Shown here in pieces: positions 46,695 to 48,663 of a stretch of DNA of 64,000 nt. The DNA lies in contig NZ_PQSR01000007.1 in the NCBI RefSeq assembly GCF_002920635.1, positions 62,001 to 126,000 of the forward strand. The letters are read 5' to 3'. Under the pieces are notes generated by a model, which made no database searches, had not been told where the DNA came from, and was given only the letters and a program-made list of their open reading frames with translations. Made by a program: the position numbers and the translations under genes. The first letter of the stretch is position 1; every line of letters starts with the position of its first letter. The DNA is from Streptomyces sp. Ru72 (GTDB lineage Bacteria; Actinomycetota; Actinomycetes; Streptomycetales; Streptomycetaceae).

Positions 46695-47498
46695 TCAGAG
46701 CACGCGGACCGCGCCGGACGGCGGGTCGTAGGACAGCGGGTGCTCTCCGACGCCGCTGGAGGGGTTCTGCGCGCCGACGAACATGCCGTCGCCCACGTAC
46801 ACCGCGACATGGTAGGCGCTGCCCGCGCCGCCCCAGTACAGGATGTCCCCGGGCTGCAGGTTGCTCAGCGAGACCTGGGTTCCGGACGTCGACTGGTCCT
46901 GGGAGACCCGCGGAAGGTTGATGCCGACCTGCTTGAAGGCCGTCTGCACCAGGCCGGAGCAGTCGTACGCCGACGGACCGGTGGCGCCGGAGACGTACGC
47001 CTTGCCGATCTGCGCCTTGACGAAGGCGACGACCGCCGCGGCCGAACCGGTGGCCGTGGAGGAGCCCGTCGAGGTGCTGGTCGCGGCGGCGAGGACGGTC
47101 CGCTCGGCGCTGCGCGAGGCGGCCTCCGCCTGCTTGCGCTCCGCCTCGGCCTTCCGCTTGGCCTCGGCCTCCTTCTTCTTGGCCTCCGCGAGGTCCGCCT
47201 TCGCCTGCTTCGCGGCGTTCGCGGCGGCCGCGTCGCGCTCGACCTGCAGCTGGTAGTTGGCCGCGGCCTGCTGGGTGGCCGCCGCGGACTGTGCGACCTG
47301 CGTGGCCACGTCGGCCGTGAGGGTCGGCAGCTCGAGCGTCTGGGTCACCGGCTCTGCGGCGTCGGCCGATGCCGCCGAGGCTCCGGCCACGGCCAGGGTG
47401 CTGAGGACACCACCGGCAACTCCGGCCCGCATCGCGATGGTCGACGCGCTGCGGTTGCGGGGCTTCCGGTGGCTGCGTATGTGAGCGGTGTGGGACAT
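46695..47498 (-). CDS. Secreted NlpC/P60 peptidoglycan endopeptidase
   Basis: About 267 residues. A long signal peptide (hydrophobic core AGVAGGVLSTLAVAGASAAS) is followed by an Ala/Lys/Glu-rich coiled coil (about residues 65-130), a Ser/Thr linker, and a C-terminal NlpC/P60 domain with Cys180 (YDCSGLVQ) and His230 (AYHVAVYVGDG). It should cut peptide stems in peptidoglycan after secretion. The start is not clear: ATG 47498 gives a normal signal peptide but the nearest GGAGGA is 21 nt upstream; ATG 47528 and ATG 47555 are in frame. Confidence 0.88.
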   Translation of the reverse strand: MSHTAHIRSHRKPRNRSASTIAMRAGVAGGVLSTLAVAGASAASADAAEPVTQTLELPTLTADVATQVAQSAAATQQAAANYQLQVERDAAAANAAKQAKADLAEAKKKEAEAKRKAEAERKQAEAASRSAERTVLAAATSTSTGSSTATGSAAAVVAFVKAQIGKAYVSGATGPSAYDCSGLVQTAFKQVGINLPRVSQDQSTSGTQVSLSNLQPGDILYWGGAGSAYHVAVYVGDGMFVGAQNPSSGVGEHPLSYDPPSGAVRVL

Positions 47499-47824
47499 GG
47501 GGACAAGCGGTACCAGGGACTCCTCCATACCTTCAAGAAACGTGTGGTCCGCCACAGTTGTTCAATCGGCGGCCTGAATCCCGGGCGTGTCATTCTTTAT
47601 TGACGCCGTAACGGGCAAAGCGGACAGTGGTGATCAAGCCTGTGATCATGGGCTTTCGTCGTTACGTCCCGAATTGCTCCCGACCTACCACTGGTTGGGG
47701 CGGATGGCCAAGCCCGCTTTATTGAACGCTCCCATGGATGTGGCGCAGGTCACGGAACGGTCACTGTCGCGGGGGCGTCTCGCGCGTGCAGCGGTGCCCT
47801 CGGTCCGTGCGCCTGCCCTGCCGC

Positions 47825-47842
47825 TTGTGAATGCATGCACCT
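47825..47842. promoter_or_regulatory. Rex-like operator, distal site 1
   Basis: TTGTGAATGCATGCACCT matches the Rex pattern TTGTGAA-N4-TTCACAA at 11 of 14 specified positions, with a complete left half. Confidence 0.45.
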
Positions 47843-47866
47843 CTGTGCGCGAAGCCGCCCCTCTGC

Positions 47867-47884
47867 TCGTGAACGCGTGCACAC
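47867..47884. promoter_or_regulatory. Rex-like operator, distal site 2
   Basis: TCGTGAACGCGTGCACAC matches the Rex pattern at 11 of 14 positions. It starts exactly 42 bp after site 1, close to four helical turns, so two dimers would lie on the same DNA face. Confidence 0.45.
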
Positions 47885-48158
47885 GTCCACATTCGTCCCC
47901 GCTCCTCCCTCTGATGTGTGAACGAGCTCCTTTAGCAAGGGATCTGGTCCAGCGCCAATTTGCTTTGAACGCTTGCCCTTTGATAATGCAAGACCGCCGC
48001 GACCAGCGGAAACGAGCGAAAATGTCACCTCTTGGTGATCACTCGACTGCTTCGCGTACGTAGATCACCGCTCATCCGACTTCATGATCGTTCGCCTGGT
48101 GGTGGAGATCACAAAGTACGTGCTGACCCCCGTGTCGCAGATCACACACCCGCGGGCA

Positions 48159-48164
48159 TAAGAT
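48159..48164 (+). promoter_or_regulatory. Candidate nuo -10 hexamer
   Basis: TAAGAT fits TANNNT and lies 140 nt upstream of nuoA; no clear -35 is seen. If used, transcription would start near 48171, just before the proximal Rex-like dyad. Confidence 0.35.
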
Positions 48165-48179
48165 GCACGGCAGTTGGGC

Positions 48180-48197
48180 TTGTGACCTGCTTCACAT
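48180..48197. promoter_or_regulatory. Rex-like operator in the nuo promoter
   Basis: TTGTGACCTGCTTCACAT keeps TTGTGA and TTCACA of the Rex operator and matches 12 of 14 specified positions. Rex senses NADH/NAD+, and control of the NADH dehydrogenase operon by it is biologically sensible. It lies 107-124 nt before the nuoA start. Confidence 0.65.
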
Positions 48198-48303
48198 GTC
48201 CGCGATCTTCGCTGGGGCGAGCGGGGCTTTCGGGACATGTGGGACGGATGTGAGCTCAGCGCAACCGCCAGCAGTCAGTGCCGACTGAGAGGAGCGAGGA
48301 GCG

Positions 48304-48663
48304 GTGAACGCGTATGCGCCCATCCTCGTACTGGGAGCCCTCGGGGCAGGCTTTGCGATCTTCTCCGTGGTCATGGCCACGCTGATCGGTCCGAAGCGGT
48401 ACAACCGCGCCAAGCTCGAGGCCTACGAGTGCGGTATCGAGCCGACCCCCACGCCGGCCGGCGGCGGGCGCTTCCCGATCAAGTACTACCTGACGGCGAT
48501 GCTCTTCATCGTCTTCGACATCGAGATCGTCTTCCTCTACCCCTGGGCCGTCACCTTCGACGCCCTGGGGATCTTCGGGCTCGTGGAGATGCTGCTCTTC
48601 GTGCTCACCGTCTTCGTCGCGTACGCGTACGTATGGCGGCGCGGCGGCCTGGAATGGGACTGA
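48304..48663 (+). CDS. nuoA: NADH-quinone oxidoreductase subunit A
   Basis: A 119-residue membrane subunit of complex I with three helices. The conserved loop [29 protein letters not shown] is present in parts ([17 protein letters not shown]), followed by [16 protein letters not shown]. It helps form the quinone channel at the junction of the arms. GTG 48304 has a GAGGAG ribosome site. First gene of the nuo operon, 13 nt before nuoB. Confidence 0.96.

Follow-up and report, generated by a model that had tools for sequence, protein, structure and literature searches.

The nuo genes of Streptomyces sp. Ru72 are preceded by three dyads resembling the operator of Rex, a well-known sensor of the NADH/NAD+ ratio. 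Excerpts of the Streptomyces work describe one full Rex operator per promoter, in some cases with an additional half-site. The locus raises the question of which of the three dyads are Rex operators, and whether sites this far apart could act together. A sequence-only reading of the region had proposed that multiple sites would allow DNA looping or control of both nuo and the divergent NlpC/P60 gene. Coordinates below refer to the window, the whole 64-kb stretch of DNA that was analysed.

Rex-type sites in the nlpC-nuoA intergenic region

46695-47498 (-): divergent gene of a secreted NlpC/P60 hydrolase, SCO4561-like (Pfam PF00877, E 2.4e-22)
47825-47842 (+): O3, additional Rex-like site, 42 bp upstream of O2 and private to this strain (score 22.0)
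47867-47884 (+): O2, probable distal Rex-type operator, 313 bp before O1 (matrix score, conservation)
48180-48197 (+): O1, proximal Rex operator of nuoA-N (identity to a footprinted Streptomyces avermitilis operator, conservation)
48304-48663 (+): nuoA, NADH dehydrogenase I chain (Pfam PF00507, E 3e-36)

The signal peptide of the NlpC/P60 gene (nlpC) is nearly that printed for SCO4561 in excerpts of PMC3276577. All three dyads lie between nlpC (-) and nuoA (+): TTGTGAATGCATGCACCT at 47825, TCGTGAACGCGTGCACAC at 47867 and TTGTGACCTGCTTCACAT at 48180, with distances of 42 bp from the first to the second and 313 bp from the second to the third. Compared to the consensus TTGTGAANNNNTTCACAA, the 48180 site matches at 12 of the 14 specified bases and the other two at 11 each. 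The whole 8.51-Mb genome contains 53 sites with at most 3 mismatches to this consensus (the reversed pattern gives 15), and 3 of the 53 fall in 373 bp upstream of nuo. Random placement of 53 sites predicts about 0.15 pairs within 450 bp genome-wide. Among the 50 of the 53 sites listed, the other close pairs are at ndh (284 bp), on contig C33 (14 bp) and on contig C82 (87 bp).

A scoring matrix was built from ten published S. avermitilis Rex sites. It ranked the three dyads first, second and third in the window (23.3, 22.0 and 19.6; the next site scored 17.5), so the proposal that these are Rex-like dyads was borne out. The first rank of O1 is partly circular, because the nuo site itself is one of the ten. 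With that site omitted, O1 scored 20.8-21.5 across loci, the 47825 site 22.5 and the 47867 site 20.2.

The genome encodes a rex gene. It also contains an ndh paralogue (contig C32, 58% identity) and a distant nuoA paralogue (contig C40, 32%); neither contig has a Rex-like site among the 50 of 53 listed. The two sites on contig C33 (5379 and 5393), offset by 14 bp, have a half-site in common and possibly belong to another regulator. A Rex-like site with 2 mismatches, TTGTGCGTGCGTTCACAA (L087 1501-1518; C11:109083), lies near an AIM24-domain gene and is absent from the S. avermitilis Rex table as excerpted.

The proximal operator O1

All 18 bp of O1 are identical to the DNase-I-footprinted Rex operator of S. 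avermitilis nuoA1-N1 (Liu et al. 2017, PMC5355995, excerpts). There, Rex binding at nuoA1 was demonstrated by EMSA, ChIP and footprinting, and the genes were derepressed in a rex mutant. The sequence identity with this footprinted site makes O1 a Rex operator, as the sequence-only reading had supposed; it is an already known one, and Rex binding to it was shown by others.

The operator is strongly conserved. A 12/14 match was found in 81/81 loci of the first sample, and the site is present in 99 of 101 genomes of the genus, the two others being one assembly that is 79% complete and one complete genome. An O1-like site precedes nuoA in 20/20 loci of 15 other Streptomycetaceae genera. The best 30 NuoA matches of a class-wide search of 98 genomes included 24 from other families, and among the 22 readable ones a 12/14 site before nuoA was found in 1.

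O1 has just two sequence forms in the genus, TTGTGAC..TTCACAT and TTGTGAA..CTCACAT (61 and 37 of 98 genomes). One inner base (48186 or 48191) is thus imperfect in one half or the other, and no site perfect at both inner bases was found among the Streptomyces or other-genus sites; perhaps the affinity is tuned. Reading the two forms as a reciprocal swap under repeated selection was rejected, as the tree of 80 loci (L015 left out) contains a single change.

The distal sites O2 and O3

For the comparison of distal sites, 179 Streptomyces loci were reduced to 178 (one short locus dropped) and then to 172 by merging six identical nuo sequences. The two underlying samples overlap in species, and the merging was limited to identical sequences. 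Initially, 149 of the 179 loci contained a site scoring at least 13 at 270-450 bp before O1. At a later stage two loci, where the sole candidate was a Crp-type dyad on the nlpC side, were removed from 144, leaving O2 at this threshold in 142/172 deduplicated loci. Under the strict 11/14 rule O2 passes in only 20/81 loci. In other Streptomycetaceae genera an O2-like further site (score of at least 13) occurs in 16/20 loci, with differing centres or flipped asymmetry (e.g. TTGTGCGCGCGTTCACAA and TCGTGCACGCGTTCACGC).

Read on the opposite strand, the O2 core GTGAACGCGTGCAC is identical to that of the published rex operator TTGTGCACGCGTTCACAA (PMC5355995, excerpts), and the operators of cydA and rex-hemACD belong to the same sequence class. 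Parts of both O2 half-sites are nearly fixed (n=149): GTGAA in 146-149 loci per base, CAC in 141-149 and T1 in 146. According to excerpts of the same paper, Rex bound no more than 6 of the 16 other candidate promoters, and its binding to three-mismatch sites was weaker. O2, with its three mismatches, may therefore not be bound by Rex.

One alternative is that O1 is the sole Rex operator and O2 the conserved site of another dimeric regulator with a similar dyad, such as Crp or an unknown one, acting on the nuo side. The Rex and Crp dyads share the pattern GTG-N8-CAC. O2 also departs from the Rex consensus at fixed positions, with C2 in 134, G13 in 141 and G17 in 106 of the 149 sites; the consensus has T at positions 2 and 13. 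At positions 12, 17 and 18, which Rex would be expected to recognise, variation is about as great as in the centre, where positions 8 and 10 vary and position 9 is G in 137/149. In addition, O2 falls below threshold in 30/172 loci. Against this, the Crp consensus GTGN6GNCAC fits just 6/142 O2 sites, the GTGAA/GTGCA half-site pair is also found in the footprinted rex operator, one other genus (L262) has full TT..AA flanks at its O2-like site, and ndh has a strong distal Rex site (13/14) at a similar distance. We consider this alternative unlikely but worth keeping in view. From its score and conservation, O2 is probably a second, distal Rex operator.

The nuoA start codon is 437 bp downstream of O2 and 479 bp downstream of O3; in the other direction, O2 is 369 bp before the nlpC start codon. 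The proposed closeness to the nuo promoter therefore applies to the 48180 site and not to the other two. Motifs reported for S. avermitilis reach 350 bp upstream of genes (PMC5355995, excerpts), and a genome search reported only to that distance would have missed O2.

The O3 stretch is not conserved in an alignment of 80 nuo upstream loci (L019 dropped), and a further site 42 bp from O2 was found in none of the other 171 of the 172 loci. Different pairs of sites occur in L034 (spaced by 22 bp) and in L167 (spaced by 82 bp). The 42-bp spacing, which the sequence-only reading related to helical turns, is real in this strain; it carries no evolutionary evidence because O3 and its spacing occur in no other locus examined. 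Conservation in relatives thus holds for the 48180 and 47867 sites and fails for the 47825 site, which could still bind Rex in this strain.

Paired operators at ndh

The ndh gene (type II NADH dehydrogenase) of this genome has two upstream sites (C3:92037 and 92321; L094 and L083): relative to the gene start, TCGTGAAGTTCTTCACAA is at -336 and TTGTGAAGGGGCGCACGA is at -52. The distal site is strong (13/14) and the proximal one weak (11/14). Among 101 genomes of the genus, 99 had the gene at E ≤1e-220 and 97 of the 99 upstream regions were readable (rows left out: L358 and L368, start not found, and L304, a paralogue). Both operators score at least 12 in 97/97 of these. Outside Streptomyces, 20 of 20 loci (16 genera) have the distal site, and 12 of the 20 have a proximal one, at -51 or -52. 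The second operator recurs beside differing upstream genes (ORF list, by eye), and apart from the proximal promoter little is conserved between the two Rex sites (24 aligned rows).

The excerpted S. avermitilis table contains only the proximal ndh2 site, and Rex binds an ndh2 promoter probe (PMC5355995). The distal operator is predicted to be bound by Rex as well. On present predictions, ndh has the same two-operator layout as nuo.

The other Rex targets differ. For cydA, 61 genomes were searched and the best 30 used (L406 dropped); a single strong operator is found in 29/29 readable loci, with one weak extra site in L411. Among the 50 of 53 genome sites listed, rex has one.

Crp-like dyads and candidate promoter elements

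47740-47753 (-): nlpC-side Crp-like dyad, GTGACCTGCGCCAC, fits GTGN6GNCAC
48062-48068 (+): a third copy of AGATCAC, 44 bp upstream of the one in dyad d, mostly conserved in 80 loci
48099-48112 (+): Crp-like dyad d, GTGGTGGAGATCAC, 33 bp upstream of dyad e, GTG-N8-CAC in 172/172 loci
48132-48145 (+): Crp-like dyad e, GTGTCGCAGATCAC, GTG-N8-CAC in 172/172 loci
48159-48164 (+): candidate -10 element of nuo, TAAGAT/TAGGAT, 15 nt before O1, nearly invariant
48204-48209 (+): alternative candidate -10 element, GATCTT, fitting the published start

The sequence-only reading did not include the Crp-like dyads at 48099, 48132 and 47740, the first two of which are invariant and lie between O2 and O1. The Streptomyces coelicolor Crp consensus GTGN6GNCAC is quoted in excerpts of PMC10033298. 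Dyad e, which is nearer to the start, fits it on one strand in 172/172 loci, and so does the nlpC-side dyad here; dyad d fits in only 3/172. The spacing between d and e is 33 bp in 170 loci and 32 bp in 2. On the nlpC side, GTG-N8-CAC is found in 102/105 loci with a recognised context (67/172 were unrecognised). The genome has a gene for a protein with a Crp-type HTH (E 5.6e-18). A literature search that included excerpts of PMC10033298 found no report of Crp binding at nuo or nlpC. The pattern GTGAYCTSCRMCAC, derived from the three Crp-like dyads, was discarded as circular: it has 10 exact matches in the genome, and the other seven lie inside long open frames.

The S. avermitilis nuoA1 footprint at -42 to -16 (PMC5355995, excerpts) would place +1 near 48217. 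The TARGAT element would place it near 48171, about 45 bp from the published S. avermitilis start. At ndh, TAGCAG or a similar sequence lies at the same distance before the proximal operator (aligned rows, by eye), and the order of dyad, -10-like element (TAAGAT/TAGCAG), 15 nt and operator is similar at nuo and ndh. The stretch 48020-48200, which contains TARGAT and direct repeats of AGATCAC with spacings of 44 and 33 bp, is highly conserved in Streptomyces, and the promoter may be activator-dependent. A small reading frame at 48084-48158, which ends at TARGAT, was rejected because relatives show in-frame TAA at this place and, in one case, a single-base indel.

Other conserved sequences were noted in the region. 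Blocks at 47910-48010 lie in the same long intergenic region as O2; at 47928-47990, between O2 and the Crp-like dyads, conserved inverted TATCAAG ... CTTGATA blocks flank CCAATTTGC. On the other side, 47505-47725 (-), about 220 nt before the NlpC/P60 gene, is highly conserved in 44 aligned loci (37 without a recognised nlpC start were left out) and is a candidate leader RNA or dense protein-binding region. The alignment folds better than column-shuffled alignments (z -4.0, 44 sequences). No Rfam match was found in the region at E up to 1, nor any base pair with changes on both sides in the 44 sequences, and the idea of a riboswitch or structured RNA was dropped.

Spacing and possible helical phasing

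In the 142 nuo loci the O2-O1 spacing is 309-315 bp in 65, 321-327 bp in 51, 316-320 bp in 5 and elsewhere in 21; some spacings are off-pattern (e.g. 341, 352-353 and 418). In the set of 149 sites, the spacing class changed 14 times on the tree, with at least 10 of the switches between the two main classes forced. The pattern at ndh is sharper: among 97 genomes, 46 have 271-274 bp, 46 have 282-285 bp and none has 275-281 bp, the remainder being 224 (3), 247 (1) and 296 (1). Parsimony gives 13 switches between the two main classes, at least 7 of them forced by well-supported branches. The extra 11-12 bp are found at differing places without tandem repeats (24 aligned rows, by eye).

In a FastTree reconstruction of ndh, 13 of 15 jumps of 4-60 bp were 10-12 or 23 bp, and the others were -48 and +58. 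Simple probability estimates for these step sizes were set aside as they assume uniform indel sizes. A jitter test was used, in which each jump is randomly shifted by up to 5 bp; several periods were tried and the P values are therefore indicative. The ndh jump sizes are periodic at 11-12 bp (P <0.001). For nuo, where 6 of 29 jumps are 5-8 bp, the jump sizes are significant at 9-10.5 bp (P 0.003-0.009), weaker at 11 bp (P 0.02) and not significant at 11.5 bp (P 0.08). No periodicity was seen at any period tried for the O1-nuoA distance (37 jumps on the same nuo tree, lowest P 0.09). A convergent-gene control (11 loci, 3 jumps) was too small for use.

The best periods disagree, being about 10 bp for nuo and about 11.5 bp for ndh, and raw ndh spacings are best fitted by 12.1 bp, with 13 bp nearly equal. 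Loop periods in vivo can exceed 10.5 bp. In other genera the nuo O2-O1 spacings (148-420 bp) have no common phase (by hand), and the ndh spacings (234-302 bp) are loosely clustered, with a resultant of 0.64-0.68 at 10.5-11 bp that is higher at 13.5. Within Streptomyces, the distances between the operators of nuo and of ndh change mostly in steps of about 11 bp, or about one helical turn. Evidence for phasing comes from the 313/324-bp O2-O1 distance and from ndh, not from the 42-bp spacing; looping, as proposed earlier, gains support from the former and none from the latter.

The nlpC-side dyad is in phase with O1 near 11.25 bp (105/172 loci where it was recognised, jitter P <0.001), as it is with a stricter dyad pattern (58 loci, P 0.001-0.002 at 11-11.5 bp). 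It is also phased with O2 (134 loci), and the phasing therefore need not be between two Rex molecules. The steps of about 11 bp might reflect the phasing of a whole protein array consisting of the Crp-like dyads, polymerase and the nlpC-side dyad, with Rex at O2 having no architectural role. This explanation accounts for the phase of the nlpC-side dyad relative to both operators, yet the cleanest quantisation is found at ndh, where the two Rex sites, apart from the proximal promoter, enclose little conserved sequence (24 aligned rows). It is improbable, if still a contender.

A possible repression loop and its alternatives

The most likely arrangement is a repression loop, since changes in the O2-O1 distance within the genus tend to leave both operators facing the same side of the helix. 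Rex-NAD+ would bind O1, overlapping the transcription start; O1 is at about +10 to +27 by the conserved -10 element, whereas relative to the published start it falls within -42 to -16. Rex would also bind O2, about 28-31 helical turns upstream, and two Rex dimers would hold a loop that encloses the promoter and the Crp-like dyads. Rising NADH would release Rex from both sites and open the loop. The ndh gene would be built in the same way.

Rex proteins are described as homodimers (PMC6125430, excerpts), so bridging would need either contact between dimers or a helper. We infer that Rex binds O2 and that the two sites are bridged directly or via another protein. We know of no case of bridging by Rex dimers. 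Whether nuo is under two-operator Rex control with a bridged O2-O1 loop, and ndh likewise, is evenly balanced in our judgement. The wider proposal reads Rex as a DNA-looping repressor at nuo and ndh, but not at cydA, that bridges phased operators about 270-330 bp apart, with the nlpC-nuo region, Crp-like dyads included, as a phase-locked nucleoprotein unit. It is put forward tentatively, as somewhat more apt to fail than to hold.

O2 might instead be the operator of a separate promoter, that of nlpC or of an unannotated upstream transcript, and make no contact with O1. It lies in a long intergenic region with the other conserved blocks at 47910-48010, at the given distance from the nlpC start. 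But its distance to the nlpC-side dyad is far more variable (standard deviation 73 bp) than that to O1 (21 bp), by which O2 belongs to nuo rather than to the nlpC side. A separate promoter also leaves the stepwise O2-O1 spacing unexplained, and at ndh the second operator recurs next to various upstream genes. We regard this explanation as rather improbable. The same difference in variability means that the suggested Rex control of the divergent NlpC/P60 gene found no direct support; O2 tends to stay in phase with the nlpC-side dyad, and an effect on nlpC is possible.

That the distal dyads are chance matches is very improbable, for while 11/14 matches are not unusual (the genome has 53 sites with at most 3 mismatches, and there are 23 matrix matches of at least 13 in 348 kb of coding DNA beside nuo, or 0.07 per kb), the sites recur at the homologous place in 142/172 nuo and 97/97 ndh loci; chance may account for the private 47825 site.

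Relation to known systems and significance

In loops of the lac/gal type, a repressor site near the start and an upstream site on the same helical face enclose activator sites. The nuo layout is similar, except that the loop would be about 270-330 bp and formed by a redox sensor. Two operators for one repressor around a promoter are found at both nuo and ndh, as judged by sequence alone. For S. avermitilis, the excerpts of PMC5355995 list O1 as the sole nuo site and, at ndh2, just the proximal one; here distal sites are also found. The cydA and rex genes differ from nuo and ndh in having one strong site and one listed site, respectively. No paired, helically phased Rex operators at nuo or ndh were found in the open-licence literature searched. 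The new observation, made on sequence data, is that O2 and its putative counterpart at ndh exist, are conserved and, within Streptomyces, change their distance to the proximal operator mostly in steps of about 11 bp.

The ndh spacing classes are natural test constructs, with 92 of 97 species in two classes one turn apart and none halfway. If the loop is real, Rex itself or a partner protein would be able to bridge sites far apart. With a conserved, helically phased second operator, control of these two NADH-oxidising genes would then be built for a cooperative, possibly switch-like response, and the enzymes that consume Rex's own ligand would be switched with extra cooperativity.
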